A stretch of DNA of 64,000 bases, from positions 24,512 through 88,511 of the forward strand of contig CACWZZ010000002.1 in assembly GCA_902765485.1 (NCBI GenBank), in the 5' to 3' direction. Shown here piece by piece: positions 5,520 through 49,400 of this stretch; the first letter of the stretch is position 1, and each line of letters begins with the position of its first letter. The stretch comes from an uncultured Bacteroidales bacterium (lineage in GTDB: Bacteria; Bacteroidota; Bacteroidia; Bacteroidales; Paludibacteraceae). The translations under genes and the position numbers were made by a program. The notes beneath the pieces were generated by a model. It did no database searches and was not told the DNA's origin. It saw nothing but the letters and a program-made list of their open reading frames with translations.

Positions 5520-6199
5520 AAGTCTCCTTTGTACGTTATTTTTCGGTTCGTTTCCTCGCCCTGCACGATGAATATCGGGTGTCGCGGTTCGTATTTGCGG
5601 ACGATTCCGGCGTCGTCGGTAGCGATGATCTCGTCCTCCGCGAGCGCTTTCATATAGGCGTCTGCTATCAAATCCAGATGGAACGCCTGGGGCGTCTGCG
5701 CGCGCATAAAGTCTTTGCGATCCGGAATCTCGCGCACTTTGCCGTCTTCTACGCGGTAGAGTGTGTCCGTGACGGGAATTGCCACCGTGACGGCTTCGTG
5801 TGTCTCCAGCGCGGCTGCTACGTCGGCTATGATCCGCTGCGAGACGAAGGGCCGCGCGGCGTCGTGGAGTAATAACCCCACCCCGTCCCTCCCTTCGGAG
5901 GGAGATAAGTCAAGGTATGCCAAGATGGCATGCCATGAGGACTCCCTTCTTTCGGAGCCGCCCGGGATGATTTTGGACAGTTTCTGCCATGTGTTCTTTT
6001 GGCATAATTTTTGCAGCGTATCAAGGTGGTCAGGATGTATTACCACCGCGATCTCATCAATTGACGGGGCCTGCTCAAAGGCATCAACGGAGTGCTCCAA
6101 GATCGAGCGTCCGTCATCGAGCGGAAGGAACTGCTTCGGAGTTTCACCTCCGATTCTACTTCCGGTTCCTCCGGCTAATATGATTGCTATATTGTACAT
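5516..6199 (-). CDS. IspD/TarI-family cytidylyltransferase with a palindromic insertion
   Basis: A 227-residue CTP-dependent cytidylyltransferase: AIILAGGTGSRIGGETPKQF (CTP loop), PGGSERRES, LLHDAARPFV, VAIPVTDTL, RAQTPQAF and NRKITYKGDL. By family it makes CDP-methylerythritol (IspD, isoprenoid pathway) or CDP-ribitol (TarI). Its place between the KdsC-like and kpsF genes suggests a glycan role, while dxr elsewhere in the window shows the methylerythritol pathway is present, so the substrate is open. Between AYLD and LLLHDAARP lie about ten extra residues (LSPSEGRDGVG) encoded by a GC-rich palindrome at 5874-5910. The chain ends right after KITYKGDL, roughly ten residues short of the usual C-terminal helix, at the ATGA overlap with kpsF. 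Confidence 0.82.
   Translation of the reverse strand: MYNIAIILAGGTGSRIGGETPKQFLPLDDGRSILEHSVDAFEQAPSIDEIAVVIHPDHLDTLQKLCQKNTWQKLSKIIPGGSERRESSWHAILAYLDLSPSEGRDGVGLLLHDAARPFVSQRIIADVAAALETHEAVTVAIPVTDTLYRVEDGKVREIPDRKDFMRAQTPQAFHLDLIADAYMKALAEDEIIATDDAGIVRKYEPRHPIFIVQGEETNRKITYKGDL
5874..5910. repeat. GC-rich palindromic element inside the ispD-like gene
   Basis: CCCTCCCTTCGGAGGGAG forms a stem with a TTCG-type loop, flanked by CCCCACCCCG. It belongs to the dispersed family also seen in thiL, sprA, mfd and several secreted-protein genes. It is translated in frame as LSPSEGRDGVG. Confidence 0.8.
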
Positions 6200-6243
6200 T
6201 GCTTGTTTTCTCCCGTTATTCTCCCGACGACGTCATACTAACA

Positions 6244-6283
6244 ACCCACTAATCACCCACTAATCACCCACTAATCACCCACT
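6244..6283. repeat. 11-bp tandem repeat between the kdsC-like and ispD-like genes
   Basis: Nearly four copies of CACCCACTAAT lie between the kdsC-like stop (6308) and the ispD-like start (6199). A related, less regular array occurs at 35000-35048. Confidence 0.9.
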
Positions 6284-6307
6284 CGTACACCGACAGTGGC
6301 ACGTAAA

Positions 6308-6887: not shown

Positions 6888-6923
6888 ATAAAAAGGATGA
6901 AACCAGATATTTTTTGCAAAAAT

Positions 6924-6954
6924 TTGCATATATGGAATAATTTTTGTAATTTTG
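6924..6954 (+). promoter_or_regulatory. Bacteroidetes-type promoter for the heptose/glycosyltransferase operon
   Basis: TTG (6924-6926), a 20-bp spacer and TAATTTTG (6947-6954), 26 bp upstream of the GTG start at 6981. It is back-to-back with the kdsC promoter. Confidence 0.8.
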
Positions 6955-6980
6955 CGCTCAAATTATAAATTAGCGTTATT

Positions 6981-8132: not shown

Positions 8133-8154
8133 CATTTGACATTTGAGATTTGAT
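8112..8154. repeat. GACATTTGAGATTT repeat spanning a gene end
   Basis: Alternating TTGACAT and TTGAGAT units carry the glycosyltransferase stop (8130-8132) and run to 4 bp before the hddA ATG at 8158. Confidence 0.85.
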
Positions 8155-8157
8155 AAT

Positions 8158-10944: not shown

Positions 10945-11031
10945 CTGTCAGCTATCAGCCTTCAGAAGTCAGCTATCAGCCGTCAGATGTCAGATGTCAG
11001 CTATCAGCCTTCAGAAGTCAGATTTCAGTTT
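10943..11031. repeat. TCAGCTATCAGC-type degenerate tandem repeat between convergent genes
   Basis: About 90 bp of TCAGCTATCAGCC, TTCAGAAG and GTCAGATG units fill the space between the hddC-gmhB fusion stop and the thiL stop. The same wording recurs in ruvA, the nadR-like gene and at 63878. Confidence 0.9.
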
Positions 11032-12077
11032 TCAAAGGCATTGAAGCCTTGCGCTTTGAGACCTATTTCTTCGCCGTTGCGACCGATGAGGTTGCAGCCG
11101 TATTCGGGTTTGGTAATATGCCCGATGATATAGAGGTCGTCGATCGGGATGAGCTTCTCGTAGTCGTTGATGGAGCAGGTGAAGAGCAGTTCGTAGTCTT
11201 CTCCGCCGTTGAGTGCACAAGTGACGATATTGAGGTTCATCTCCTCCGCCAGCGCGGCTGCTTCGTAGTCGATCGGCAGCTTGTCCTCATAGACGCAGCA
11301 CCCCACTCCTGATTGGGAGCAGATATGCAGTAACTCGGAGGAGAGCCCGTCGGAGACATCCATCATCGCGGTCGGCTTGACGCCCGCTTTGCGCAGGGCT
11401 TCGAGGATGTCACGCCGTGCTTCGGGTTTGAGTTGGCGCTCGAGGAGGTACTCTTTGCCCTCGAAAGCCCCCTCCGTCTCCCCCGTGGAGGGGGAGAGAT
11501 TAGTGCCATAGTTGGTAGAACGATGCACCATAAGTTCGCGCTCCAAGAGCTGGAGACCCATGTACGCCGTGCCGAGGTTGCCGGAGACGCAGATGAGGTC
11601 GTTCAGCTTGGCACCGTTGCGATAGACGATGTCTTTGGCAGCCGCCACGCCGAGGCAAGTGATGGAGATCGTCAGTCCGGTCATAGAGGAGCAGGTGTCG
11701 CCTCCGACGAGATCGACGTTGTACCGCTCGCAGGCAAGGCGGATGCCGGAATAGAGTGCCTCGATGTCTTCTACCGAGAAGCGCTTGGAGATACCGAGCG
11801 AGACGGTAATCTGGGTCGGTGTGCCGTTCATGGCGTAGATGTCCGAGAAATTGACCACCGCCGCCTTGTATCCAAGGTGCTTGAGCGGCACGTATTCCAA
11901 GTTAAAATGAATGCCTTCGAGCAGCATGTCGGTCGTCATGAGGACGCGCTTGGAGCCGAAGTCCATGACCGCGCAGTCGTCGCCCACGCCTTTTTTGGTG
12001 GAAGGCTGGACGTGTTTGAGATCCTTTGTCAGATGTTTGATGAGTCCGAACTCACCGTATTTGGAGATTTCAGTCAT
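11025..12077 (-). CDS. thiL: Thiamine-monophosphate kinase with a palindromic insertion
   Basis: A 350-residue ThiL/AIR-synthase-fold kinase that phosphorylates thiamine monophosphate to the diphosphate. Seen: GVGDDCAVMD (Mg/ATP), TTDMLLEGIHF, AVVNFSDIYAMNGTP, LVGGDTCSS, AMMDVSDGLSSEL and NGGEDYELLFT. Between LLERELMVHRS and EYLLERQLKPEARRD the loop is lengthened by about ten residues around NLSPSTGETEGAFEG, encoded by a GC-rich palindrome (11466-11500). It faces the heptose operon across a repeat array; its start is preceded by another tandem repeat (12079-12112). It may be read together with the secreted-protein gene upstream. Confidence 0.93.
   Translation of the reverse strand: MTEISKYGEFGLIKHLTKDLKHVQPSTKKGVGDDCAVMDFGSKRVLMTTDMLLEGIHFNLEYVPLKHLGYKAAVVNFSDIYAMNGTPTQITVSLGISKRFSVEDIEALYSGIRLACERYNVDLVGGDTCSSMTGLTISITCLGVAAAKDIVYRNGAKLNDLICVSGNLGTAYMGLQLLERELMVHRSTNYGTNLSPSTGETEGAFEGKEYLLERQLKPEARRDILEALRKAGVKPTAMMDVSDGLSSELLHICSQSGVGCCVYEDKLPIDYEAAALAEEMNLNIVTCALNGGEDYELLFTCSINDYEKLIPIDDLYIIGHITKPEYGCNLIGRNGEEIGLKAQGFNAFEN
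11466..11500. repeat. GC-rich palindromic element inside thiL
   Basis: CCCCCTCCGTCTCCCCCGTGGAGGGGGAG forms a CTCCCCC/GGGGGAG hairpin; translated in frame as LSPSTGETEGAFEG. Confidence 0.8.
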
Positions 12078-12078
12078 G

Positions 12079-12112
12079 AGAGTTGAAAGTTGAAAGTTGA
12101 AAGTTGAAAGTT
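12079..12112. repeat. GTTGAAA tandem repeat upstream of thiL
   Basis: Four copies of AGTTGAA in the 33-bp gap between the thiL start and the stop of the next secreted-protein gene. Confidence 0.9.
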
Positions 12113-13814
12113 AACGCTGTTTTATGCCTCTTACATCGTAGATTTGTCCTTCGTACATCAGCCAGAGTTGGCCATTTCGGAGGAGTTTAGAACCCCTCTC
12201 CGTCTCTCCCCTCAAGGGAGAGAGGGTGTTTTCAATGCCGGTGGCTGTATTCTTGCGCGCAAGGCGGATGGATGCAATGCCACCGTCGCCGCTGCTTTGG
12301 GCGGAGACGACAGAGAGCATAAAAGGTTGCTGTTGCTCCACGACTAAGGTGTTGCCGGCTACTAGCAACTTGGTTTTGGAGCCAAAGGCTTCTCCGTTGA
12401 TATAGAATTCCACTTCTCTTTCTTTACTCGCCATGGAGGTGAGGACGACGGTGTCACAGGCAGGGAGGAAGAGTTCAACGTGGGTCTTTCCCGCAATCTC
12501 ACGGCTGTAGTCCTCGTCAGTCTTGGAGAAGCGCCATTTCTTGGTCGCATCCCACCCGTAAGCACTCTTGACCCAACTGCTCTCGGAGCCATCAAAGACG
12601 ATCAGCGAGTCCGTGAAAGCGACAGGTGTTACGGGCTGAAAATCAGTAGTATAAGTAGCCGTTGAGCCGTTCAATGCCGTGATCGTAATTTCATTCCCGT
12701 TTTGGCTCCAAGCGGCTCTTTCGGAGAGGATGTAACTCTCCACCTCGGGCACAGGATCGCCCTGCATATACCATCCTCGGATGATGTTTTCTCCCTCGTT
12801 GATAAAGGCATAATAGCCGTTGGAGAGCACCACTTCGTTGATCGCTTTGGCAGCCGAGTCCACGGGTTGCGGTTCCACTTGGGGCTCACCGGGCGTAGTT
12901 GCGTTCCAGCGCGTGTATTGGTAGATCGGCGTGTCTTTTTTCGAATCGGAAGTGGTGTAGAAAACGGAGTCATTGAGCCAAGCAAGGGACTCACCCTGTT
13001 CCTCCTTCACATATGCCGCGATCTGGACCGGAAGACGGGTGGCAGTAGTTGCGAGCGACTCATTATTCAGGCGCTCCCAGAGGAGAATATAACTCTCATT
13101 CTTGATTGCCATCCATTTGCCGTCCGGCGAGATGTCGCCGCCGTTAGCAAGTTTGAACTTGCTGCCGTTGCCCAGCGCACAGACCTCCGTAAGACGTTGT
13201 ACACCGGAGCCATAGTCGGTGCGGAAAGGCAGTTTGTAAAGATGACACACGCCGTCCACCTTGTCCGCAATATAGAACATCTGCTCTATATTGTCGTACA
13301 TGAGTGTCTCTGTGTTATGGGCATTGTTGTCGGGGTAGCCGAAACAGATGGTATTGACCGTGACGGTCTGGGAGCCGGAAGTGATAGCGGGTTCCTCGAA
13401 ATAATAGATGTAGTATTGGTCGTTGAAAGCGAGATCGTTGTCTCCAATAGCCCCGACAAAGAGGTAGTTCTTGTTGTCATAAACACCGGTAGCGATGTCT
13501 TCCCAGTCGTCCCGTGAGTTATTGGGCGTCGTGAGGTTGAGGGTCATGGCGAGCGCGCCGGCAGGTGTGATGGCAATGATCTTGCGGTCCGAACCGGTGT
13601 TCTCGTCTCCGTGCGCCCAGAGGAAGCCGGGTGTGGTGCGCGAAGCAGCGAGCCCGCTGATCTCCTTCATGGTTTTCTTCAACTGAGTACCGCATTGGGT
13701 GCGTGTGAAATCATTGTAGAGCGTCAGCGAGTTGCCATCGTAATTGATGCCGCTTGCCGCCCATACTCCGCCACTCATGATGATGGCGATAAGAACCAAA
13801 CTAATCTTTTTCAT
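12111..13814 (-). CDS. Exported propeller-like protein with a shared C-terminal tail
   Basis: 567 residues from the ATG at 13814, where a clean signal peptide begins (MKKISLVLIAIIMSGGVWA). The N-terminal half has repeated strand-like blocks (ISGLAASRTTPGFLWAHGDE, KIIAITPAGALAMTL, DDWEDIATGVYDNKNYLFVG, GDISPDGKWMAIK). They suggest a beta-propeller related to SdiA-regulated or phytase-like esterase proteins, tentatively. The C-terminal third is unassigned. The last residues (LLRNGQLWLMYEGQIYDVRG) are a divergent copy of the tail found on the next ten secreted proteins; the linker before it comes from a palindrome at 12190-12229. Unlike the others it has its own promoter, right after the terminator of the LRR gene. 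Confidence 0.7.
   Translation of the reverse strand: MKKISLVLIAIIMSGGVWAASGINYDGNSLTLYNDFTRTQCGTQLKKTMKEISGLAASRTTPGFLWAHGDENTGSDRKIIAITPAGALAMTLNLTTPNNSRDDWEDIATGVYDNKNYLFVGAIGDNDLAFNDQYYIYYFEEPAITSGSQTVTVNTICFGYPDNNAHNTETLMYDNIEQMFYIADKVDGVCHLYKLPFRTDYGSGVQRLTEVCALGNGSKFKLANGGDISPDGKWMAIKNESYILLWERLNNESLATTATRLPVQIAAYVKEEQGESLAWLNDSVFYTTSDSKKDTPIYQYTRWNATTPGEPQVEPQPVDSAAKAINEVVLSNGYYAFINEGENIIRGWYMQGDPVPEVESYILSERAAWSQNGNEITITALNGSTATYTTDFQPVTPVAFTDSLIVFDGSESSWVKSAYGWDATKKWRFSKTDEDYSREIAGKTHVELFLPACDTVVLTSMASKEREVEFYINGEAFGSKTKLLVAGNTLVVEQQQPFMLSVVSAQSSGDGGIASIRLARKNTATGIENTLSPLRGETERGSKLLRNGQLWLMYEGQIYDVRGIKQR
12190..12229. repeat. GC-rich palindromic element in the tail linker
   Basis: CTCTCCCCTCAAGGGAGAGAG makes a stem; translated as NTLSPLRGETERG directly before the conserved tail. 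Confidence 0.8.
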
Positions 13815-13837
13815 CGTGTCAGAAAAGAAATTGCGCA

Positions 13838-13868
13838 CAAAGATACTGCTTTTTTTGCACATACACAA
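13838..13868 (-). promoter_or_regulatory. Bacteroidetes-type promoter
   Basis: On the minus strand, TTG (13866-13868), a 20-bp spacer and TATCTTTG (13838-13845), about 24 bp before the ATG at 13814. Its TTG is the end of the T-run of the preceding terminator. Confidence 0.8.
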
Positions 13869-14000: not shown

Positions 14001-16271
14001 TTATTGGACCTGTGCGCCTTGGGCGTTGTAGGTCTTGCCGTTGCGCTCGATGAGGAGTTGACCATCGCGAACGACCTTATTGGCTCTTCCCTTCAAGGAG
14101 GAGTCGGAGGTAGGCTGCTCGATGCCTTCCTTTGTGTCTTTAAAATATGCGATGAACGTTTGTGGCTCTGTAGAAGTAATAACCCTCGGGTTGTCGGTGT
14201 TACCGTCAGACCAATGGTCAAAAGCAAATCCGTCATTCGCTTCGGCATAAAGTACCGCCACAGAACTTGCGCAATCGCCGGAGAAAGTAACCGTAACTTT
14301 TCCTTTTATTTCATCTTCGCTTATACCTTGGATAGCCACAACTCCGGTAAAATTAGTGAAATGGTTCCACTCCGCGCGATAGGATTCCAAAGCGGAGCAA
14401 GGAACAGTTATTACCGCTGTTGTCGGAACATAATCAAACGCATCCTTGGCAGTACGGGGCGCGGTGGCAGGGTAAGCAATAATAGAAGATATTTTGTCAT
14501 TATTAGCAAAAGCTTCTTTCCCTATAGAGTCAACTGCTTCACCAATAGAAAGTTTGCTGATTGGGAGTCCGATAAAAGTTCGTCTACCTATGAATTTAAC
14601 AGAATTAGGGATTTGCAGTTCTCCTATTTTCTTGGTGTAAGAGCCGCAATAAGCAAATGCTTCGTCCGGGATTGTATCTAAATCGCTCAATATGATTCGT
14701 TCTGCTTGTACACACCAATAGAAAGCGTTTTTACCTATTTTCTTCACACCCTTGGGTAGATTGATAGCCCGCAGATTCACATTTTGTTGAAATGCTTCAT
14801 CGCCTATACAGACCAACGTATTGGGAAATACAACCGTTTCCAAAGAATCGGCATGAGAGAAAGCCGCCTCTCCGATTGTTTCGACGCCGTCCAAGAAAAT
14901 AACCGAGCGCAGGCTGTCACAATTCTGGAATGCTCCGGTTCCTATATTGGCAGCAGTAGTCAGTTCACGAACAGGCGCGCTAAAGAAAGCATAGTCCCCG
15001 ATTTGCTCGACTGTTTGCGGCATAGTAACGTCAACAAGGGATTCACATTCATCAAAAGCATAGTCCCCGATGGTTTGTAACTGTTCGCCGAGATAGGCCT
15101 TTCCCATTTGCTCGCAGCCATAAAAAGCTGATTCTCCGATTGACTTGAGCGAACGACCGGCGATAAACTCTGTCAATGCCGTATCATATCTAAAAGCCCT
15201 CGGATCGACATACTCCGCTCCATCCAAAAGGGTAACGGATGTTAGATTGTAACAATTCTCAAACGCACTCTCTCCAATAGATGCAGAGGTTGTCAAAGAA
15301 GCGATGCCGGTAGAATAAAATGCTTTGTTTCCAATTCGTTTGAGTGAAGACGGAAGTTCTACTTGTGCTAACTTATAGCAACTCTTAAAAGTCTCATCAC
15401 TTATTTCTTCCACGCCGTCGTGTACTGTCAGCGTCTGTAAGTTATCAAGTGCGCCAAAGAACACTTCTGGTTCAAGCACTTTGACTCCGCCACCAAAAGT
15501 AATGTTTGTCAGCGGACAATACGCAAAAGCCCGTTTCCCAAGAGAGGTGACGGCATCCGGGATAACGATCTCGTTCATTTTATTTGACGCAAAAGCCCCT
15601 ACTCCGATGGAATTAAGAGTTGAAGGCAATAAAACATCTGCAATATTGTTATCAGCAAATGCAGTACCTCCGATTTCGGTCAAACCTTCATTAAGAGTAA
15701 GCGAGATCATGTTATTTGCCTGAAATGCACTAACTCCTATGTGCTCGACCGAAGCAGGAATATTAACCATCGCGAGTTGATTGCTGAAGAAACTGAAATC
15801 TCCGATAGCTTTCAAACTACTGTTAAGCATAATAAGAGAATTTAGTTGACAGTTGTAAAAAGCATAGTCTCCGATAGAGTCCACCGACGCAGGAATGTCG
15901 ATCGATGTTATCGGTTCATCTTCCAAGATATGCGCACGCAACTTCTTCAAACCGGCAGGCAATGTAATAGATACCACTTGATTACTCATCACACCCAATA
16001 AATCCGTTACTATATAGGTCTTTCCATTTTTACTGACTGTGTTCGGAATAACAATGTTTAAATCTGTGCTTAGCGTATAACTAATTACTTGGTATTCTGC
16101 CGTCATGTCGTCATCGTAACACCAACAAACAGCATTAAAACCATCACCGGAAATGTAAATAGCTGTTGATAAACGCCCCTCATCGGTTGGACCACTATAA
16201 TCAATGCGTTCCGCCTGAACGGAGGTGATAGCCATAATGGCCGCTGCGATAAAAAGTAAAAGTTTTCTCAT
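14001..16271 (-). CDS. BspA-type leucine-rich repeat exported protein with the shared tail
   Basis: 756 residues from the ATG at 16271 (signal peptide MRKLLLFIAAAIMAITSVQA). Residues 90-620 are about twenty 22-24-residue LRR_5 repeats with the core I(G/P)xxAFxxCxxLxxVxLPxxVxxIG, as in BspA and Treponema surface adhesins. A C-terminal strand-rich module (GKVTVTFSGDCASSVAVLYA) follows. The tail VVRDGQLLIERNGKTYNAQG ends the chain and is preceded by EQPTSDSSLKGRAN, encoded by a palindromic element (14081-14118). The start is set by the signal peptide; the longer frame reads through leader DNA. A host or glycan binding role is usual for the family but not shown here. Confidence 0.85.
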   Translation of the reverse strand: MRKLLLFIAAAIMAITSVQAERIDYSGPTDEGRLSTAIYISGDGFNAVCWCYDDDMTAEYQVISYTLSTDLNIVIPNTVSKNGKTYIVTDLLGVMSNQVVSITLPAGLKKLRAHILEDEPITSIDIPASVDSIGDYAFYNCQLNSLIMLNSSLKAIGDFSFFSNQLAMVNIPASVEHIGVSAFQANNMISLTLNEGLTEIGGTAFADNNIADVLLPSTLNSIGVGAFASNKMNEIVIPDAVTSLGKRAFAYCPLTNITFGGGVKVLEPEVFFGALDNLQTLTVHDGVEEISDETFKSCYKLAQVELPSSLKRIGNKAFYSTGIASLTTSASIGESAFENCYNLTSVTLLDGAEYVDPRAFRYDTALTEFIAGRSLKSIGESAFYGCEQMGKAYLGEQLQTIGDYAFDECESLVDVTMPQTVEQIGDYAFFSAPVRELTTAANIGTGAFQNCDSLRSVIFLDGVETIGEAAFSHADSLETVVFPNTLVCIGDEAFQQNVNLRAINLPKGVKKIGKNAFYWCVQAERIILSDLDTIPDEAFAYCGSYTKKIGELQIPNSVKFIGRRTFIGLPISKLSIGEAVDSIGKEAFANNDKISSIIAYPATAPRTAKDAFDYVPTTAVITVPCSALESYRAEWNHFTNFTGVVAIQGISEDEIKGKVTVTFSGDCASSVAVLYAEANDGFAFDHWSDGNTDNPRVITSTEPQTFIAYFKDTKEGIEQPTSDSSLKGRANKVVRDGQLLIERNGKTYNAQGAQVQ
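14081..14118. repeat. GC-rich palindromic element in the tail linker
   Basis: CTTCCCTTCAAGGAGGAGTC followed by GGAGGTAGGCTG, the reverse form of the element in sprA (38532-38570). Translated as QPTSDSSLKGR. Confidence 0.8.
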
Positions 16272-16284
16272 AATGTTTGTTGTT

Positions 16285-16356
16285 TTAATGAGCCCAGGCT
16301 CGGTTAATATATGTTGTTTTTTTGTAACCCGGCGGAAAGCCAATCCCGCCGAGCTT
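16285..16356 (-). repeat. Duplicated leader module with two hairpins
   Basis: On the minus strand a CGGCGGGA-type stem is followed by an AACCGAGCC-GGCTC hairpin and AAAACAACAAAC before the ATG. Near-identical modules precede the genes starting at 17486 (17500-17572) and, in part, 20878. Confidence 0.7.
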
Positions 16357-16365
16357 AGAAGCCTA

Positions 16366-16450
16366 TCCTAGATCCTTCCCTAAGAGGAAGGACTTTTGCG
16401 CTTCCTGTTCCCAACACCCTTCCCTTCAGGGAGGGGGCGGGGGTAGGCTT
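16366..16450. repeat. Two palindromic elements between secreted-protein genes
   Basis: A TCCTTCC-GGAAGGA hairpin (16371-16393) and CCCTTCCCTTCAGGGAGGGG next to CGGGGGTAGGCTT (16416-16450). The second is an intergenic copy of the family inserted in sprA, mfd and thiL. Confidence 0.75.
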
Positions 16451-17638: not shown

Positions 17639-18643
17639 TTACTTCACTTCTGCGCCTTGTGCGTTATAGGTCTTGTCGTTGCGCTCGATGAGGAGCAGGC
17701 CGTTGCGGATGACTTTGGAAGCCTCTCCCGACCTCCCCTGAAGGAAAGGAGATTCGATGGCTTGCGACTGCTTGGCGGCGCGGACACGATGAACGAAATT
17801 TACCACCTTGGTTTGAAATTCATTTGGCAGTTGCTGCTCGGCGTGCCCTTTGTCGTGGGTATAGAACTCGCAATCCACACCTGCTGCCTGCAGGTTATTG
17901 TAGAAATTCTCAGCCACGCAATAAGGTACGACATTATCGCTTGTGCCGTGACTAATGAAGATCGGCGGAGCATCTTTGGTGATATAAGTATTCGCGCTTG
18001 CCAACGCCCATTTGTCCGGACAATCGGCATACGAACAGCCTATCATTTGCTGAGATAATGCGGCTATCTGGTATTCGTCTTGATTACACTCGCCTATATT
18101 CCGAAATTCCACACATCCGGAGAAGTCAATTACTGCGTCCACCGGGTAACTACCGGCTGCACCGTAAAAATCCCAGGTCTCGCTACCCACCGTGTACGAA
18201 TCGATGTTTTTTGTCAGACCCGCCATGGCAGCCAAATAACCGCCCATACTAAAACCAGATACAACCACAAACGTGGTGTCCAGCTTTCCCTTCTCAACAC
18301 CATAGCTAAGGAATCCTCTTATCGCTGCCCTGATTTCGTTAATCGGAAGAGGAAATGTTGTGCTTCCATAAGGTGCGGGCATGGTATAATTGATAGCCAC
18401 AAAGGCATACCCTTCCTTATCAAATATACTTTTGAGAGGAGTACTACCCAAAGCACCTGTTCCGGTACCACCCACAGCCGGCAGCAGTACAATAACCGGA
18501 GCAGGCATATACTTCTCGTCAGGTAAAGACACATCCGCCTTTATGTTCTTACCATCAACGTTAACAGACCATTGTATAGTCTCATAGGCGAACATCGGAA
18601 CGCAGCAGAGGGCTGCAAAGAAAAAAGTAATGATTTTTCTCAT
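17639..18643 (-). CDS. Exported alpha/beta hydrolase with the shared tail
   Basis: 334 residues with signal peptide MRKIITFFFAALCCVPMFA. Seen: VIVLLPAVGGTG, nucleophile VSGFSMGGYLAAMAG, acid SHGTSDNVVPY, and histidine in THDKGHAEQQ. Several blocks match the previous hydrolase (DKWALASANTY, ENFYNNLQAAGVDCE), which shows common origin. The tail VIRNGLLLIERNDKTYNAQG is preceded by SPFLQGRSGEASK, encoded by a palindromic element at 17719-17751. An exported esterase acting on dietary or host polymers is inferred; no specific substrate can be named. Confidence 0.83.
   Translation of the reverse strand: MRKIITFFFAALCCVPMFAYETIQWSVNVDGKNIKADVSLPDEKYMPAPVIVLLPAVGGTGTGALGSTPLKSIFDKEGYAFVAINYTMPAPYGSTTFPLPINEIRAAIRGFLSYGVEKGKLDTTFVVVSGFSMGGYLAAMAGLTKNIDSYTVGSETWDFYGAAGSYPVDAVIDFSGCVEFRNIGECNQDEYQIAALSQQMIGCSYADCPDKWALASANTYITKDAPPIFISHGTSDNVVPYCVAENFYNNLQAAGVDCEFYTHDKGHAEQQLPNEFQTKVVNFVHRVRAAKQSQAIESPFLQGRSGEASKVIRNGLLLIERNDKTYNAQGAEVK
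17719..17751. repeat. GC-rich palindromic element in the tail linker
   Basis: CCTCTCCCGACCTCCCCTGAAGGAAAGGAG, a variant of the dispersed family, translated as SPFLQGRSGEA. Confidence 0.7.
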
Positions 18644-20878: not shown

Positions 20879-21355
20879 AAATGTTTGTTGTTTTGTTGAG
20901 CCTCCGGCTCGGTTAGTATATGTTGTTTGTTTTGTTTTGATTTAGTTGTTTCAAAAAAACATTAATTGGATTACCGTTAAGGCATATTGCACCTTAAAAA
21001 GTGCAGTTTTGCTTCCATTTATCCCTCAATAAGTGCTTATTTGCATTAAAAATCTCCCTCAATGAGTGATTTTTTTAGCAAATTTATTTGCATATATCAT
21101 AAAAAAGCAGAACCTTTGCAGTTGGAAACCATAAATGTTTCACCAATTGAACATTTTTGATCACACTTTTGAACAATTTTGATTAGTATGATACAACGAT
21201 CTGAAATTAAAGAACTTACGGATTTTTTTCGGTAATCCAATATGTCAAAGAGCGATAAAGTTTTAAGCTTTTTTGTAGCCATGCAGGGTAATCAGCCCTG
21301 CATGGCTGAGGGAGCCTATCCTAAATCCTTCCCTAAAAGGAAGGACTTTTATGGC
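20879..21355. other. 477-bp AT-rich intergenic region with paired direct repeats
   Basis: No convincing gene. It holds a GAGCC-GGCTC hairpin (20898-20910), TCCCTCAATRAGTG twice (21022-21035 and 21055-21068, 33 bp apart) and TTGAACAWTTTTGAT twice (21147-21161 and 21169-21183, 22 bp apart). It also has a plus-strand promoter-like TTG-N20-AACCTTTG (21088-21118) and a minus-strand TAAATTTG (21079-21086). A 61-residue minus-strand frame at 21097-21282 has no recognisable features. Confidence 0.7.
21277..21307. repeat. CCATGCAGGG palindrome, copy 1
   Basis: AGCCATGCAGGG and CCCTGCATGGCT form a perfect 12-bp stem with a 7-nt loop. Confidence 0.9.
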
Positions 21356-24712: not shown

Positions 24713-27334
24713 TTAACGCACCTCAGCGCCTTGTGCGTTATAGGTCTTGCCGTTGCGCTCGATGTAGAGGATGCCGTCGCGGAGAACCTTATTGGCTCTT
24801 CCCTTCAGGGAGGAGTCGGAGGTAGGCTGCTCGATGCCTTCATTTACCTTGACGTCACGCGCCGGGCGGACAGCATAGCCCATTTGAACCATGGCATCAC
24901 TGACTCTTGCAGGAGTATAGGCGGTAAAAGTCACCGCTTGCGCCATATCAGAATACTCAGATGATGGAGTAGGTGTCCAATAATAGCCATTTCCGGCTTT
25001 GATGGCGTTAATGCCTATACCATAGCGGTATCCTGCTGCGGGTAAGAACACCGCACCTGCCGCCTCCATCAGTTCCCAATCTCCCAACGTATATACATTC
25101 GTGGTGTAGTCGTTCGGGGTGGGGGTGAAAGTCAGAATCAAAGGGGTAGTCCAGTTGTCAGGAAGCAGTATATATCCCTTTATATCATTCACGACCGCTT
25201 GTCCTTTCAGGTTAGCTGCATTGGGGCGTGTGTTGAGCAGATAGTTCCATTCTTCAGCAGAGAGTGTGTACCATGTCTCGTTATTCCCGTTTACGATAGG
25301 GTTCGCTGTCCAATCTGAGTAAGAAGCATACGGCGCAGATTCTTTGGATGTTTCTACAGGATTGTTACCTGTTCCCCATCCGAAGAGGTCGATCCAGCCG
25401 GAGTAGTTGGCAGCGATATTTTCATTCTTATAACCTATCATACTATATTGGCTATTTGCGAATGACCATTCGTTAGAGGAGGCTTTGTATCGCAGATTAC
25501 CTTGCGAGAAGATAACTTGCTTATCAGCGGCAACAGAGAATCGACCTGTCAATGCTTTTGGCGCTACTTCTACTTCCTTAACCATACGAACGGCACTTCC
25601 ATATTTATAACTCAAAACCGCTGTGCTTGGCAGATTTACTTTGTCTGCATAGAAACTGACATGAAAGCCTCCCAATCCGTCTATGCCGTCAGAGGACCAA
25701 TAGCCTCCTCCAATGTTATCATCCAGTACTGCTTCATAAAATCCGAATAAAGCAGCAGGCAAAAATACCGCGCCTGCAGCTTCCATCAACCGCCATTGGT
25801 TGGTCGTATAGGAGTTGTCGTTAAAACCTGATTTGGTATCACTGCCGTACCGGTGATTTTCCTCGTCCCAATAGAAAGATGTAGAAGTGGCAGGATAGAA
25901 TACTGCCCCGCTTGGCAAACTCCATTCGTCAGGAAGCAAAATTAACCCGCTTATAGTACCTATTTTCCCCAGTCCAAACAGATTCTCTGCATTCTCTCTT
26001 CCACGGAACAAATATATCCATTCGTCCTTCGTCATGGTTCGCCATTCGTGTCCACCTCCGTTCTCAATGCCGCTTAGTCCCCATTCTGTAAAAGGTGCAT
26101 ATATATCGTCCTTATAAACAGGGTCATCTCCGGAACCCCATGTAAAAAGATCTATCCATGTATTGAGGGGAATTCTGCCACGGATATTCTCGTTTTCCTT
26201 ACCCAAAATATCGAATTGGTTCTCAGCAAACTGCCATGTGTTGACAGCAGGGTTGGTTGTCGGGTAGCATTGTAAATTGCCTTGTGAGAAATTAACCTTT
26301 GTTTCGTCACTTACAGAAAACACACCCGTTAAAGTCTTTTCTGAAGCAATATCTGGTTTCTCATGCGGAATATCTTGCGCTAAGCGAACAAAATAGCGTT
26401 TTGATTCGTTTTTCGTATCAGTCACCAATACTCTGGCAAAATAACTGTTCTTTACATCAAGATGCAGCATATTAGCACGATGATTAGCTTCATCGCCCGA
26501 TGTCCAATAGTCGCACCCTGTATATGCTGTTCCTGCAGCAGGTAAAAAGACAGCACCTGCGGCCTCTAATTTTTGCCATGCAACTTCATCATATACATTG
26601 TTCGCCCATTGATCTTTATCTTCCGTAAACGAAAGACCGTTAGGCAATTTGAAATTATCAGGGAATAATAATGCTCCGTTTACACCACAAACATATGCCA
26701 GGTTGCGTAATTTATCTGCATTTGGCCTTTTTGTTATTATATAGTCCCATTCCCAGCCAGATAGCGAACGCCACAAATCGGGCGCATTCCCGCCGTTTTC
26801 GATGGAATTATACACTCCCCAGTCGTAGTTTCGGCTCTGCCGGATAAGAGATGAGTATCTCATAATGTAAGCCGACGGACCATAACCAAAGGGATTGTAT
26901 TTGGCGGTCTCTGTAGGGTCGCCGATGTTGATGGTGTCAGAAGAGGTGTCCCATGGCTGGAAATGGATGGCACGAGGGTCATTGGCAGTGTTGTCATAAC
27001 CACTGGTTCCCCAACCAAAATTGTCAATCCAACCATTATAGTTCTCATCAACGAGTAAATTGTTGCATTTATTGCCACCCTCATATACACTTCCGATGGT
27101 AGCGTCTCCTACAAAGTCATATTGTCTTTCAGCAAACCGCCACGTTCCTTTAGCTGTAGTTCCATCTACACAAGAATGAGTGCCTTTAGCAGCATTAAAT
27201 TGCAAATTGCCTTTTGAAAAAACAACTTGGTCACCATATTTATTAATGGTAAACGCACCGGGCAGCGCGCCTTCGGTGGCATACATGGTTGCCGCTACTA
27301 TCGCAGCAGCTAACAGTGTAAAAAGTTTTCTCAT
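24713..27334 (-). CDS. Exported protein of three homologous repeats with the shared tail
   Basis: 873 residues with signal peptide MRKLFTLLAAAIVAATMYA. Three copies of a 260-290-residue module are visible. Each opens with V(V/N/I)FSQGNLQ-like text, then W.FAxxQ(Y/F)DxxG, GWIDLFGWGT, a W-x-L-S-x-x-EW block, LPDxWxLP, the strongly conserved EAAGAVFLPAA(G/L), and a closing AVRxxR/K motif. Similar modules occur in Bacteroidales and Fibrobacter surface proteins; no catalytic residue pattern is evident. The tail VLRDGILYIERNGKTYNAQG follows EQPTSDSSLKGRAN, from a palindromic element at 24793-24831. The linker and tail are almost the same as in the 756-residue LRR protein. Confidence 0.8.
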   Translation of the reverse strand: MRKLFTLLAAAIVAATMYATEGALPGAFTINKYGDQVVFSKGNLQFNAAKGTHSCVDGTTAKGTWRFAERQYDFVGDATIGSVYEGGNKCNNLLVDENYNGWIDNFGWGTSGYDNTANDPRAIHFQPWDTSSDTINIGDPTETAKYNPFGYGPSAYIMRYSSLIRQSRNYDWGVYNSIENGGNAPDLWRSLSGWEWDYIITKRPNADKLRNLAYVCGVNGALLFPDNFKLPNGLSFTEDKDQWANNVYDEVAWQKLEAAGAVFLPAAGTAYTGCDYWTSGDEANHRANMLHLDVKNSYFARVLVTDTKNESKRYFVRLAQDIPHEKPDIASEKTLTGVFSVSDETKVNFSQGNLQCYPTTNPAVNTWQFAENQFDILGKENENIRGRIPLNTWIDLFTWGSGDDPVYKDDIYAPFTEWGLSGIENGGGHEWRTMTKDEWIYLFRGRENAENLFGLGKIGTISGLILLPDEWSLPSGAVFYPATSTSFYWDEENHRYGSDTKSGFNDNSYTTNQWRLMEAAGAVFLPAALFGFYEAVLDDNIGGGYWSSDGIDGLGGFHVSFYADKVNLPSTAVLSYKYGSAVRMVKEVEVAPKALTGRFSVAADKQVIFSQGNLRYKASSNEWSFANSQYSMIGYKNENIAANYSGWIDLFGWGTGNNPVETSKESAPYASYSDWTANPIVNGNNETWYTLSAEEWNYLLNTRPNAANLKGQAVVNDIKGYILLPDNWTTPLILTFTPTPNDYTTNVYTLGDWELMEAAGAVFLPAAGYRYGIGINAIKAGNGYYWTPTPSSEYSDMAQAVTFTAYTPARVSDAMVQMGYAVRPARDVKVNEGIEQPTSDSSLKGRANKVLRDGILYIERNGKTYNAQGAEVR
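24793..24831. repeat. GC-rich palindromic element in the tail linker
   Basis: CTCTTCCCTTCAGGGAGGAG then TCGGAGGTAGGCTGC; same element and frame as at 14081-14118. Confidence 0.8.
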
Positions 27335-29004: not shown

Positions 29005-29078
29005 CCATGCAGGGTAGTCAGCCCTGCATGGCTTGGGGGGGGAGCCTATCCTAAATCCTTCCCTAGAGGGAAGGACTT
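29005..29078. repeat. CCATGCAGGG palindrome (copy 3) and CCTTCC hairpin
   Basis: CCATGCAGGG/CCCTGCATGG at 29005-29031, then a TCCTTCCCT-AGGGAAGGA hairpin ending in TTTTT on the plus strand. Confidence 0.85.
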
Positions 29079-32350: not shown

Positions 32351-32432
32351 CCATGCAGGGTAATCAGCCCTGCATGGCTTGGGGGGGGGAAAAGCCTATC
32401 CTAAATCCTTCCCTAAAGGGAAGGACTTTTTA
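32351..32432. repeat. CCATGCAGGG palindrome (copy 4) and CCTTCC hairpin
   Basis: CCATGCAGGG/CCCTGCATGG at 32351-32377, then TCCTTCCCTAAAGGGAAGGA followed by CTTTTT on the plus strand. Confidence 0.85.
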
Positions 32433-38279: not shown

Positions 38280-38344
38280 TTACAAAAATAATAAAAAATA
38301 AGAAAAATATTTTTGTTACAACACGCTTGAAAGAAAATAGAAGT

Positions 38345-41300
38345 TTGAAAAATAGATATTTTTACATAGTACTGGTTAGTCTGTTGCTGTGGTTGCCGAT
38401 GGTGACTATGGCGGTTGATGCGCAGAACGACGGCGGCAAAAGGAAAAGCGGCGGCAAGAGTTTGAAAGAACTCGTGGCGGAAGAAAAGGCACGGAAGGAA
38501 GCGGAGAAAGCAGAGAGGGAAAAGAGGGAGCAGCCTACCCCCGACCCCTCCCTGAAAGGAGGGGAGGAAGGAGCCACCGTAAGCCCTGAAGCCGCAGCGG
38601 ATTATGTGACGGAGACGGACAGCGCTATCTGGGCGCCGACGAAAGTGAAGCAACTCGGCGTGCAGAACTTCGGCGAACTGGTGCAGCCGCAGAGTTCATT
38701 GGATCTACAAGATCCGGGTAATATATCCACCACCGTGGAATACCAGCCGGAGACAGGCATGTACGTGCTGCACACACGCATCGGCGAGACCGACGTCACG
38801 ACGCCGTATATGCTGACGCAAGACGAATATAACCATTACGCCGAGCGGCAGATCATGCACCGGTACTGGCAGCAGAAAATAGGCGAGGTGGAGCATAACA
38901 ACGAGTCCAAGTTCGACATCACCGACATGAAGTTCAACATCGGTCCGGCGGACAAAGTGTTCGGTCCGGGCGGTGTGCAACTGAAGATGCAAGGAAGCGC
39001 CGAGTTGCTATTCGGATTCAAGCACCAATACATCGCCAACCCGTCTCTTACTGTACGCGCGCGCAATAACAACATCTTCGATTTCGACGAGAAGATCCAA
39101 GCCAGCATACAAGGAAAAGTCGGTTCGAAACTCAATTTTAACATGAGTTACAACACCGAGGCTTCTTTCTCGTTCGACCAGCAGAACCTCAAACTGAACT
39201 ACAAAGGCGAAGAGGACGATATCATCCAGAGTATCGAAGCCGGTAATGTGACGATGGACCTGCCTTCGTCGCTCATCCGCGGCAGTCAGGCACTTTTCGG
39301 AATCAAGACGAACCTGAAGTTCGGCAAGTTCCGCATTCAGGCGCTCATCAGCCAGCAGAACAGCGAGGCGCAGACCGTGAGCAGCAAAGGCGGATCGCAG
39401 ATGACCAAGTTCGACATCAGCGGCGACAGCTACGACGAGAACCGACATTTCTTCCTGAGCCACTATTTCCGCGACCGCTACGAATCGGCGATGGCGAGTG
39501 TGCCGTATATCGCTTCCGGTATCACGATCAACAAGATCGAGGTCTGGATCACCAATAAACGCGGTAACTACGACCAAGCGCGTAACATCGTGGCTTTTGC
39601 GGACCTCGGCGAGAACAGCGACCACGTCTTTAACACCTCGTGGGGTGGCGCACCCGGTCTGGCACCGGACAACAACACCAACGGACTTTATGCCGCTATC
39701 CGCGCGACCGATTTCCGTAATCTGCAGCAGACCAGCCAAGTGCTGGAAGGGATGAACGGCATGGAGGGCGGAAATGACTTCGAGAAGATCGAGAGTGCGC
39801 GGCTGCTGACCAGCAGCGAATATACGCTCAACAGCGCGTTGGGTTATATATCGCTGAAGAGCGCGCTAAACCAAGACGAAGTCTTGGCGGTGGCTTACGA
39901 ATACACGTACAACGGCCGTGTCTATCAGGTCGGTGAGTTCTCGACGGACGGCAGCGAGGAGTTGCACGCGCCGAATGCGCTGGCACTGAAGATGCTGAAA
40001 AACAGCGCGAACGCACCCAACAAAAAAGGTCGCGGCACATGGGACCTGATGATGAAAAACATCTACTCCCTCGGCGCGACCAGCATCAACCAAGACAAGT
40101 TTGAGTTATACGTCACGTACCGCAACGACTCGGTGGGAACGGACGTGCAATACCTGAACGAAGGACCGGAGGCGATCAACGGCAAGCAGCTGCTGCGCGT
40201 GATGAACCTCGACCGTTTGGACCAGAAACATAACGCGTCCCCCGATGGACGGTTCGACTTCATCGAAGGACTGACCGTTTATGCCTCGTCCGGCAAGATC
40301 ATCTTCCCTGTGCTGGAGCCGTTCGGCAGCCACTTGGCAGACGCCCTGGGCAACGACCCGCGGCTGGTGAAGAAATACTGCTTCCCGGAGCTGTACGACT
40401 CGACGCTGATTGTGGCGCAGGAGCTGAGCGAGAAGAACAAATTCCACCTCACGGGTAAATACAAAGGCACGAACGGGAGCGAGATCCGTCTGGGCGCGAT
40501 GAACGTGCCGCGTGGTTCTGTGACCGTCACAGCCGGCGGTGCTACCTTGATCGAGAACGTCGATTACACCGTCGATTACACGATGGGAACAGTGACGATC
40601 CTGAACACCTCGATCCTGGAGAGCGGCACGAACGTGGATGTGAAGCTGGAGAACCAAAGCACGTTCTCGCTGCAACGCAAGAGCCTGTTCGGTGCACACT
40701 TGGAGTACGAGTTTAACAAAGACCTCGTCCTCGGCGGTACGATCATGCACTTGCGCGAGCGTCCTCTGACCACCAAGGTCAACACCGGATCGGAGCCGCT
40801 GGCGAACACGATCTGGGGCGTCAACGGCAGTTGGAAGACCGAGATGCAGTGGCTCACCAACGCCATCGACAAGATCCCTTGGATCAATGCCACCGCGCCT
40901 TCGACCTTCCAGATCAATGCGGAGTTTGCGCACCTCATCCCCGGACACACCCGCGATGTCGGAGCTGTCGGAACGGCGTATATCGACGATTTCGAGAGCA
41001 CCACGACCAACATTGACATCCACTATCCGAGTTATTGGTTCCTGGCTTCCACGCCGACCGTCTTCGACGAATCGAAAGAGATCAACCAACCCGGGTACAA
41101 CAAGAACAGAGCGTTGCTGTCATGGTTCCTCGTCGATCCTATTTTCGGTTACCCGCAGTCCAACACCCCGGCACATATCAAGAACGACTTAGCGGCGCTG
41201 AGCGACCACAGGACACGTATCGTTTACCAGGACGAGATTTACCCCAACCGCCAGGAGGCAAGCAACGTCGATACCAAGCTGCCGATCCTGAACCTCGCGT

Positions 41301-45952: not shown

Positions 45953-46431
45953 TGTACAAGGTAGGGATCATAGGACCGGAGAGCACAGGCAAAAGCGCGC
46001 TGGCGCGGTACCTCTCGAAACGGTACGGAGGCGTGCTGGTGGAGGAATACGCGCGGAGGTACGTAGAGGAGAAAGGCACGACCGAGGTGAGTTATGAGGA
46101 GCTATGCGAGATAGCAAGGCGGCAGATAGAGGAGATAAAAGCTGTCAGCTATCAGCTATCAGATATCAGTTTCTTCGACACCGAACTGATCGTGACCAAA
46201 GTGTGGTTTGAATATGCTTTCGGGCGTGTGCCGGAGTGGCTCAACGAAGCTATCAAAACCTACCCGATGGACGTCTATCTGCTGACCTATCCGGACATAG
46301 CGTGGGTACCCGACCCCGCACGCAGCAACGGATCGGACGAGATACGAAAAGAATTATTTGACCGCTATGAAGCGGAGATACAAGCGCTGGATGTACCGTA
46401 TTATATCATCCGGCACGAGGATAATGATTAA
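45952..46431 (+). CDS. NadR-like AAA/P-loop kinase
   Basis: 159 residues, with the ATG overlapping the sprA stop by one base (TGATG). Seen: VGIIGPESTGKSALARYL (P-loop GPESTGKS), VEEYARRYVEEKG, IARRQIEEIK, FFDTELIVTKVWFEYAFG and WVPDPARSNG. These match the C-terminal ribosylnicotinamide kinase-type domain of NadR, here without the adenylyltransferase or DNA-binding parts. It probably phosphorylates nicotinamide riboside, but this stand-alone family is not well defined. AVSYQLSDIS after IEEIK is encoded by a TCAGCTATCAGC repeat (46140-46172), a modest insertion. Confidence 0.82.
   Translation: MYKVGIIGPESTGKSALARYLSKRYGGVLVEEYARRYVEEKGTTEVSYEELCEIARRQIEEIKAVSYQLSDISFFDTELIVTKVWFEYAFGRVPEWLNEAIKTYPMDVYLLTYPDIAWVPDPARSNGSDEIRKELFDRYEAEIQALDVPYYIIRHEDND
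46140..46172. repeat. TCAGCTATCAGC repeat inside the nadR-like gene
   Basis: CTGTCAGCTATCAGCTATCAGATATCAG, in frame. Confidence 0.85.
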
Positions 46432-46437
46432 AGAATA

Positions 46438-49400
46438 ATGCAGATCGAGGATCTGAACATATTGTTTGCCCAACACCCGGAGATAGCATTAGCTCGACGG
46501 GAGATGGGAAAAGGAAAAGGGATCCACCTTCTTCTGAACGGCTTGCACGCGAGCGCACGCGCTTTCGCGCTCGCGCAACTGCGCGCGTCCTTATTCATTA
46601 TTATGGACAATGGAGAGGCGGCGCAATACCTCTACGGCGATCTCAGAAGCCTCCTCCCGCCTTCCCCTGAAGGAAAAGGAGAAGTGTATTTCTTCCCTTC
46701 CAGTATCCGCCGGCGCACTACCGACGAAGCTATGGCGATCCAGCGCACAGAGACCTTAGGTGCCCTCATGCGCGCGGATAAAAATAGTATAGTGGTGACC
46801 TACCCGGAAGCCATCGCGGAGAGCGTGCCCAGCCCCAAGACGCTGGAGAAGAGTAGCATGACATTGCGCGTAGGACAGGAGATTCCTCATTCGGAACTCA
46901 GCCGCAAACTAACGGAACTGGGCTTCGAGCACGTGGACTTTGTCTTCCAGCCCGGGCAATACGCCATCCGAGGAAGTATCGTAGATATATACAGCTACAG
47001 CCACGACATCCCCTACCGTCTGGATTTCTTCGGCGACGAGATAGACAGTATCCGAGAGTTCGACATCGAGGACCAACTGAGCAAGACCAAAGTGGAAGAA
47101 GCGGAGATAGTAGGTCAGTCCTCAGAAGCCGGCGACCAGCCGTCTGCCTCTATCATAGACTACCTGAACGACGAGTTTATATGGGTCAGCAACGAGTGGA
47201 GCGTCGTGAAGTATAAATTGGAGGGCTTAGGGGTTACCGGTGACGGGATACAGGAACGCAGGACGATCGAGATGGCGGAGAAGAGTTATTTCCCCACGCA
47301 TAGCAAGATCGCATTTGACACCCTCCCCCAGCCTGTTTTCCACAAGCAGTTTGACCTGCTGACCGAAGATATTCAAAAACACCAAGAGGAAGGTTATAAG
47401 ATCTATATCTTAGCCGAACAGAAGAAGCAGCTGGATCGCTTGCAGGCGATCTTGGGTGAGGACATCTTCATCCCGATCAACGCGACGATTCATGAGGGTT
47501 TCGTGGACAAGGGACTGAAGATTTGCTGCTATACCGACCATCAGATCTTTGAGCGTTTCCACCGCGTGAGAGTCTCCAGCGAGAATGCCCGCCGCGGCAA
47601 AGCGATCATCACCCTGCGGGAGATCAACCAACTGCAAATAGGCGATTATGTGGTGCATTCCGACCACGGTATAGCGCGGTTCGGCGGTCTGGTGACCACT
47701 CCGGTGAACGGCAAGCCGCAGGAAATGATCAAACTCAATTACCGAGACGGAGCGAATGTGTTTGTCAGCATTCATAACTTGCACCGGATCAGCAAATACA
47801 AGGGTCGTGAAGGCAGCGAACCGACCATTGCGCGTTTAGGCAGCGGTCAATGGGAACGACTCAAAGAGCGGACAAAGGACAAAGTCAAAGACATAGCGCG
47901 AGACCTGATACGGCTCTATGCCACCCGCAAGCAGCAGCAAGGCTACGCCTACTCGCCGGACGGATATATGCAGCACGAGTTGGAGGCTTCGTTCCTATAC
48001 GAAGACACACCGGACCAGGCGAAAGCCACGGCAGACGTAAAACGCGACTTGGAGAGCCCGATGCCGATGGACAGACTGGTATGCGGAGATGTCGGTTTCG
48101 GCAAGACCGAGGTTGCCATGCGAGCTGCCTTCAAAGTAGCGACCGACGGCAAACAAGTAGCGGTCTTGGTGCCCACGACGGTATTGGCACTACAGCATTA
48201 TAACACGTTCCGCGAGCGGATGAAGAACATGCCGGTGCGGATCGAATACCTCAGCCGACTCAAATCCGCCAAAGAGATCAAAGAACTACTCGCGGAACTG
48301 GAGGCAGGCAAGATAGACATCCTGATCGGCACCCATAAGATCATTGGCAAAAACGTCAAATGGCACGATTTAGGACTGCTGATCATAGACGAGGAGCAGA
48401 AATTCGGCGTAGCAGCCAAAGAGAAATTAAAGAGTCTCCGAGCGAACATTGATGTGCTGACCCTGACGGCGACTCCGATCCCTCGCACCCTGCAGTTCTC
48501 GTTGCTGGGCGCCCGAGACCTGAGCGTCATGACGACCCCGCCGCCCAACAGGTACCCTGTGCAGACGGAACTGATCACCATCGACGACGAAGATATTATC
48601 AAAGAGGCGATAGATCTGGAAATGGAGCGCAATGGTCAGATTTTCATCGTCAATAACCGCATTGAGATGTTGCCTCGTATCGAAAACCGCATCCGCAAGC
48701 TGTGCCCCGAAGCGCGAATTATCGTAGCACACGGTCAGCTACCGGCAGGCGAGATGGAGGAAAGGCTGGAGGCGTTTATCAATTACGACGCGGATATACT
48801 CCTCTCCACCACGATCATCGAATCCGGCGTGGATATACCGAACGTGAACACCATCCTGATCTTCAGCGCACACCAATACGGACTGGCAGACCTTCACCAA
48901 CTACGCGGACGCGTGGGACGGTCGAACAGAAAAGCTTACTGCTATCTGATCGCGCCGGAGAAAGAGCTGTTGACCGAAGATGCACGGCGGAGACTGGAGG
49001 CACTCAGCACATTCGCCGAACTCGGTGCGGGATTCAACCTCGCCATGCAGGACCTCGACATACGAGGAGCGGGAAACATGCTCGGCGCGGAGCAATCCGG
49101 ATTTATTGCCGACTTAGGATACGAGACCTACCAACGGATATTGAACGAAGCTGTCGAGGAGCTGAGAGAAGAGATGGGAGGAGAACTCAACGATGCAAAT
49201 TCGTCCAATCTTGACGGTACAATATTTCCGAATGACAGCAAGCGGACGTGGTGCAGCGATGCGCAGTTAGAGACGGACATAGCGGTATGCTTTCCGAACG
49301 ACTATATCGAGAATATATCCGAACGCATCACCCTCTACCGCGAGTTGGACAGTCTGCATAGCGAAGACCAGTTGTTAGACTACCGCAAGCATTTGATAGA

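Follow-up and report, generated by a model that had tools for sequence, protein, structure and literature searches.

Short hairpin repeats between genes and in frame within conserved genes of uncultured Bacteroidales

Rickettsia palindromic elements (RPEs) are dispersed palindromic repeats of 105-146 bp that occur between genes and in frame within conserved genes, according to passages of a published account (PMC2229807), in which it was shown for one enzyme with an insert that it is translated and active. We describe a family of hairpin elements of about 35 bp in a 64,000-nucleotide stretch of DNA from an uncultured Bacteroidales bacterium of the family Paludibacteraceae (contig CACWZZ010000002.1, positions 24,512 to 88,511 of the forward strand), called the window below, and in the host genome and its relatives. 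Like RPEs, as far as descriptions can be compared, these elements stand in frame in conserved genes and are present in some relatives and absent from others. Unlike the RPEs of those passages, they are units of about 35 bp or pairs of about 80 bp, and belong to another phylum. An initial annotation of the window had proposed an RPE-like, apparently mobile element in conserved genes, and the dispersed copies and the loops that differ species by species bear this out. To our knowledge, Rickettsia is the main source of known in-frame palindromic repeats, which have been treated as a curiosity of small genomes.

Repetitive extragenic palindromic sequences (REPs) of the GTAG and CGTC types are described, in parts of a survey (PMC3733652), as hairpins of 20-40 bp with an unpaired tag at one end, which form inverted dimers and lie behind coding regions. 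Those parts also class the shorter RPE-4 and RPE-6 as CGTC REPs, report CGTC repeats in Bacteroidetes among other phyla and mention intragenic REPs in several species, although most REPs are intergenic. The new element shares with REPs the hairpin with a tag at one end, intragenic copies and a location behind coding regions; its inverted pairs are few. With 20-40 bp, a high copy number and a hairpin apparently kept by compensatory change, it falls within a broad sense of REPs or bacterial interspersed mosaic elements (BIMEs). It differs from the GTAG type in that GTAG (GTRG) is not at the 5′ foot of the hairpin; the motif occurs on either strand in 16 of 98 host copies, and the 14 CCTAC copies have it 3′ of the hairpin on its own strand. 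CGTC occurs in eight of the 98 copies, and never within 8 nt of an end. The element appears to behave like the Rickettsia elements, in frame and tolerated, and is built like REPs, while matching neither the GTAG nor the CGTC definition.

Other small mobile sequences fused in frame to genes are the miniature inverted-repeat transposable elements (MITEs) ERIC/RU and Correia/NEMIS of enterobacteria and Neisseria, as presented in passages of PMC2229807. These are longer, and many have terminal inverted repeats and target duplications. The inverted ends of our compound units are imperfect. Porphyromonas gingivalis belongs to the same order as the host. Its MITEs and BrickBuilt repeats are likewise non-autonomous, but they are annotated, in the relevant part of PMC5771137, as intergenic and non-coding. 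Full-text searches of open-access PMC papers (subscription papers lay outside the search) found no earlier description in Bacteroidales, in agreement with the initial annotation, which knew of no equivalent there.

We consider it probable that the elements are non-autonomous, REP/BIME-like hairpin repeats belonging to a genus of mostly rumen-derived Bacteroidales/Paludibacteraceae. Copies would spread through the genome and settle directly behind stop codons or inside genes, and those in genes would persist where a loop tolerates an insert of about 10-14 residues, many of them Pro, Gly and Ser. More tentatively, new copies might arise through an enzyme that copies the hairpin as single-stranded DNA during replication. 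What can be read from the sequences themselves is that copies are dispersed, that hairpins carry compensatory changes, that coding copies are open and in frame, and that single sites differ in the presence and subfamily of the element. In this gut lineage, genomes of some 2 Mb carry about 100 copies, half or more of them in genes, many of which are conserved. With so many copies, and dozens of related species available, gain, loss and exchange can be traced at single loops. Two questions thereby become testable: how a repeat spreads without an evident transposase, and what share of the variation in protein loops comes from genome repeats.

Element structure and distribution

On one strand, a unit of about 35 bp consists of AA(A/G)CC, a variable C-rich tag, a spacer a few bases long and a hairpin, for example CCCTCCCCTCAAGGGAGGG, often followed by AGA. 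The tag consensus is AARCC[TC][ACT][CT]CCC. The hairpin has about 7-9 pairs, with a pyrimidine-rich left arm and a purine-rich right arm. Tag variants among the 98 host copies are CCCAC (35), CCCCT (15), CCTAC (14), CCCCC (13), CCTCT (12) and others (9). Hairpin and tag sequences tend to covary, judged by eye, giving recognizable subfamilies. Most units are single: the host copies include only two close inverted pairs (within 100 nt), at 16359/16416 of the window and in hflX. A complete inverted pair, forming a compound element of about 80 bp, occupies one Mfd loop in 5 of 80 relatives. In a long variant, present in Mfd of several relatives, about 45 other bases replace the left hairpin arm; long and short forms alternate at two sites between the host and its sister species, G083.

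Copies were sought with a sequence-only profile (R1), made from 44 copies that are partly from the host, with five or more from the window, which match by construction. RNAalifold found no common pair on an alignment (A1), so R1 was kept without covariance structure. In the structure-free alignment made by R1, 88.4% of the seven central pairs are standard, versus 54.7-76.3% in slid-register controls; the register was picked after inspecting 12. Cells changed on both sides of the hairpin number 39, compared with 15.1 (standard deviation 3.1) upon shuffling, and none of 500 shuffles reached as many. Two measures that count pairs or pair types show no excess over shuffles (4 versus 4.9, and 10 versus 10.9). 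We infer that the hairpin is maintained by compensatory changes. Predicted hairpin energies are -13.8 for coding copies, -13.5 for non-coding copies and -9.6 for shuffled ones. A G-quadruplex was rejected as a conserved feature, as a G4-like motif is found on the opposite strand in only 27 of 98 copies. The window had no matches to Rfam 15 at the gathering score.

A profile scan of this genome and its relatives, which the initial annotation had proposed, revealed many further copies. At least 98 were counted in the host genome (2.1 Mb, 82.8% complete), a lower bound because 150 of 460 candidates were scored; 21 of 119 rows, with E-values of 0.01-0.05, were dropped, part of them opposite-strand echoes. 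The sister species (about 93% DNA identity, 71% complete) has 70 copies in 768 kb. Among 41 genomes of the genus, host included, 32 have a match at E ≤ 1e-3 and nine have none, with 0 to 77 copies per genome under stricter filters and at most 150 candidates scored in each.

A core pattern with up to 3 mismatches occurs 80 times forward and 71 times in reverse in the host genome, versus 4 and 9 times for the pattern read backward; the core is nearly palindromic, so many of these sites are counted twice. A stricter scan for tag plus hairpin gave 62 sites in 1.65 Mb versus none in the reversed sequence, in a set that includes loci chosen for holding copies. The copies are not due to chance. When genomes were searched for a pattern with up to 3 mismatches, 20 of 37 from the genus (host included) and 1 of 24 from other families had matches, and the backward control gave one match in total. 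The closest Mfd matches to the window come from metagenome-assembled genomes (MAGs) of uncultured Bacteroidales/Paludibacteraceae, many with forestomach-sample titles. In a sample of the wider phylum, matches at E ≤ 1e-4 were obtained for at least 31 of 394 other genomes, mostly one or few per genome, these being lower bounds obtained with stricter filters and at most 17 candidates scored per genome. Seven examples from these genomes resemble the same tag and hairpin type and, together with the few-match genomes, suggest that the family, or something that looks like it, has a patchy distribution across the phylum.

Copies within genes and exchange at single loops

Under a flank rule (an open frame and a positive codon score on both sides), 51 of the 98 host copies are coding, 11 ambiguous and 36 not coding. 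A simple caller of open reading frames (ORFs) places 67 of 98 in genes, and a similar one 45 of 70 in the sister species. By either count these repeats are unlike the mostly extragenic REPs, and since random 35-mers are coding in 71-72% of cases by the flank rule, genes are only mildly avoided. Both neighbouring genes were called for 30 intergenic copies. In 25 cases the two genes run in the same direction, and 19 of those 25 copies are no more than 12 nt away from a stop codon. An exact 16-mer is shared with a non-coding copy by 33 of 51 coding copies, versus 181 of 20,000 random 35-mers. The account of the initial annotation is incomplete, in that a third to half of all copies are non-coding, many of them directly behind stops, and other repeat families enter the same coding loops.

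Coding copies occur in both orientations and in six frames, with 6 to 14 copies per frame. Within genes, 28 host copies have the orientation of the gene and 39 the opposite one; the corresponding numbers in the sister species are 32 and 13. On average, 5.0 of six frames are open through a coding copy and 4.8 through other copies, compared with 5.06 and 4.87 in dinucleotide shuffles and 4.26 in random host 35-mers. Given that the shuffles are equally open, and the non-coding copies likewise, openness is a by-product of composition. We therefore rejected it as a selected trait; the proposal that the element was selected for tolerance in three or more frames is not supported.

An NCBIfam scan covered 30 ORFs (29 genes, with hflX in two lengths) from among the hosts of the 51 coding copies, and the ispD gene of the window. 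Those above the curated cut-off are murD, murG, rlmD (two copies), lpxD, hflX, lepB, gldG, pnuC, rsmH, mnmA, ispD and the alanine racemase part of a murF-alr fusion. The remaining ORFs matched only below the cut-off, apart from four with no match. The three copies in hflX share one frame, and one of them precedes the first ATG yet is inside the part that matches HflX.

For 30 of the 98 host sites, both flanks were found in stretches of the sister species; the host stretches were chosen around host copies and are hence no neutral sample. By the flank rule, 17 of these sites are coding. Twelve of the 17 differ in length between the species, and all 12 differences are multiples of three (a chance of 3^-12 if independent). 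The other 13 sites include five that differ in length, one of them by a multiple of three. Because the coding differences are all divisible by three, coding copies are very probably translated, being read through as peptide rather than bypassed or excised. Grouped by eye, the 30 sites in the sister species hold the same element in 16 cases (once with an added tandem copy), another subfamily or variant in six and other sequence in eight, of which five have another repeat.

In an AlphaFold model of Mfd (48 sequences, mean predicted local distance difference test score (pLDDT) 69, predicted template modelling score (pTM) 0.42; used for the N-terminal part only), the insert falls with lowered confidence between a predicted helix (59-72) and a predicted strand (83-85): the block with the element loop (71-80) has a pLDDT of 72, its neighbours 92 and 87. 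In PDB alignments, the solved relatives of LpxD, ThiL and MnmA are gapped at the element. In MurD, the extra residues fall just ahead of the element, an ambiguous placement. The initial annotation held that the added residues fall where family members have short loops. This needs qualifying for two C-terminal linkers in the window (14084 and 24796), which roughly match in length the linkers of neighbouring paralogues that lack the element, so that the element there replaces linker sequence and does not lengthen it.

Comparison of relatives at individual loops, likewise proposed by the initial annotation, shows the element to be present in some and absent from others. For ThiL, one loop has an R1 match in 3 of 30 loci including the host, representing three subfamilies, one of them in opposite orientation; loci without a match have other loops there, mostly short. 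For IspD, one loop has a match in 5 of 30 loci, of which one is weak (E 0.03) and one in another frame, while several other species have heptamer-type repeats there and others short loops. The aligned loops are from 30 of 58 (ThiL) and 30 of 57 (IspD) genomes with a match. In SprA, the sister species has a different subfamily, but only one further relative, identified as an Mfd neighbour, was comparable.

RimP, identified by Pfam with its C-terminal domain below the cut-off, has a copy in at least one of three slots in 6 of 18 relatives. In L033, all three slots are filled, for a length of 198 residues; the third holds the long variant, which R1 missed. Only slot 2 is filled in its close relative L032, and only slot 1 in L041. 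Six relatives free of the element have lengths of 151-153 residues, and in the remaining six other inserts or an upstream start add to the length. An identical 30-nt element occurs in the RimP loop at L033:5650, L041:8475 and L059:6488, with 10-nt flanks that are 90-100% identical. Over 150-nt flanks, however, L059 is only 69-75% identical to L033 and L041. This pattern suggests short-tract transfer between species. Between species, a given loop can differ in the subfamily or orientation of its element, or contain an unrelated repeat instead.

A single ORF (L134:18-3197, + strand) reads as an RND efflux permease (residues 1-593) joined to an outer-membrane efflux protein (residues about 611-1060), neither of which reaches its curated cut-off. 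An element lies at the junction, at about residue 594, and the same copy is present in the sister species. This copy may have fused two neighbouring genes.

Spread of the element and rival explanations

The 13 host contigs that carry at least three copies differ in the balance of orientations (permutation p 0.0006). Orientation matches plain GC skew for 72 of 98 host copies and 50 of 70 in the sister species; with third-position skew corrected for gene strand, the matches are 61 of 98 in the host (unit-flip p 0.11) and 51 of 70 in the sister species (p 0.003). An earlier version of the test showed no agreement with the majority gene strand (38 versus 32). Since orientation partly follows GC skew, there is a hint of replication-coupled spread, in which the single-stranded hairpin would be copied; selection on the G-rich strand would also explain the bias.

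Several observations weigh against this mechanism or the wider explanation proposed above. We identified no transposase responsible for the element, and Y1_Tnp was not found in the host, in the sister species or in G034, which is 97% complete and has at least 74 copies. None of the 30 sites compared with the sister species is cleanly empty, and no target-site duplication was seen, there being no clean empty site in which to read one. The test of orientation against skew is only suggestive in the host and assigns strands on MAG contigs; the earlier version of the test gave 34 versus 18 (p 0.036). Finally, the solved relative of MurG has no gap, its loop being as long as that of the host.

The resemblance to REPs raises the alternative of a REP family mobilized by a REP-associated tyrosine transposase (TnpA_REP/RAYT) that is lost or missing from the assemblies. 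Tag and hairpin, some inverted pairs, position behind stops and strand bias are reminiscent of REPs. TnpA_REP subclasses exist in Bacteroidetes, subclass 2.6 having atypical hairpins, according to part of PMC6006769, and 22 of 61 genus genomes have Y1_Tnp matches, 18 of them above the cut-off. However, Y1_Tnp does not track copy number: 5 of the 14 genomes that have at least 10 copies show a match, as do 11 of the 27 that have fewer. It was found in none of G000, G083, G034, G036, G006 and G021, of which G083, like the host, is incomplete, and the GTAG of the CCTAC subfamily is on the wrong side of the hairpin. On present evidence we rejected Y1/RAYT as the mobilizer and regard this alternative as unlikely. 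A better candidate, though still a doubtful one, is rapid short-tract recombination, which would exchange loops and spacers within genomes or between species with the repeats mainly as passengers. It would fit the 14 of 30 sites at which the sister species has another variant or other sequence and none that is cleanly empty, as well as the identical RimP element within diverged flanks. Recombination alone would leave about 100 copies at unrelated sites, and their placement behind stops, unexplained; it may act alongside the spread of REP/BIME-like repeats that we favour.

The compensatory changes, the similar hairpin energies of coding and non-coding copies and the many intergenic copies directly behind stops could also be understood if the hairpin were retained for a function in RNA or DNA, such as transcript ends or stability, translation or protein binding, the coding copies being a by-product. 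We find this improbable, given that in-gene copies use both orientations and all six frames, that the sister species differs at 14 of 30 sites and that nine of 41 genus genomes have no match at the threshold and scoring depth given above. That the loops are convergent low-complexity Pro/Gly sequences and not a DNA element is scarcely credible: the loops are tolerant and also host unrelated heptamer-type repeats, but coding copies match intergenic ones in DNA, across six frames and two orientations. A broader and speculative extension of the repeat-spread explanation is that many protein loops in these bacteria are reusable slots. In conserved enzymes, strand-biased hairpin repeats that spread without a known transposase, coupled to replication, and heptamer-type minisatellites might keep replacing each other, making genome repeats a main source of loop sequence and occasionally fusing neighbouring genes.

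Copies in the window and other repeats

R1 has 13 matches in the window at E ≤ 2.5e-4. They comprise all nine places named by the initial annotation, eight coding and one intergenic, and four further intergenic ones; translation shows the reading frame open through all eight coding copies. On the + strand at 5875..5904, a copy (20.5 bits) within ispD (gene 5516-6199, - strand; NCBIfam match just above the cut-off) encodes LSPSEGRDGVGL. The thiL gene (11025-12077, -) contains a copy at 11465..11498 (+, 18.4 bits) that encodes LSPSTGETEG, extra residues relative to PDB 1vqv. In sprA (ORF 38201-45952, +), the copy at 38532..38566 (+) is near the N-terminus and encodes QPTPDPSLKGGE. The degenerate copy in mfd (46438-49731, +) at 46647..46681 (+) encodes LLPPSPEGKGE and is, with 18.0 bits, the weakest in the window, followed by that in thiL.

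Four genes for secreted proteins have the element in a linker near the C-terminus. The first (12111-13868, -) has a copy near its 3′ end at 12191..12224 (+), encoding LSPLRGETERG, which the flank rule left uncounted as coding because it requires 30 codons on either side. An LRR_5 protein (gene 14001-16343, -) has the copy at 14084..14116 (-) in its C-terminal linker. In a gene for a BD-FAE-type hydrolase (17639-18643, -), the copy at 17719..17751 (+) lies close to the 3′ end and encodes ESPFLQGRSGEA; we rejected its assignment by the flank rule to an overlapping + frame. The last copy, at 24796..24828 (-), is in the C-terminal linker of a protein (gene 24713-27334, -) with no Pfam match.

Four of the intergenic copies belong to the CCTAT subfamily, all on the + strand: 16359..16392, 21313..21345, 29043..29075 and 32392..32425. 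The first is the left half of an inverted pair, whose right half, 16416..16450 (-), abuts the stop codon of the gene at 16449-17624 (-). A CTAGTTTAT-type repeat stands at the counterpart of the 29043 site in the sister species. Between secreted-protein genes there is also a recurring second hairpin, CCATGCAGGG...CCCTGCATGG, at 21277-21305, 27386-27414, 29005-29033 and about 32350-32380.

Repeats of other types are also common. Heptamer-type minisatellites (such as TCAGCTA, GGTGAAA, TCAAATC and CCAATCA) occur between genes and in the same loops as the palindromic element: in IspD and Mfd loops of relatives, at host sites in the sister species and, in the window, at 10943-11028, 37615-37672 and 46140-46176. 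The Mfd loops of L027-L106 have further recurrent segments in different species, among them DRPAxPDR, SASLQDANAT and VQNTDQITF, which resemble other repeat families. Further dispersed repeats in the window, at 6203-6293, 6918-6955, 8115-8157, 12078-12112 and 21086-21121, have several matches in G083, G034, G021 or G036 in a 20-kb search. Another palindrome-like repeat, of about AATCGTGCCCTT(CA)GGGCTAAGAA, adds sequence at several sites, among them the L114 counterpart in the sister species, L031:13298 and L129:2181.

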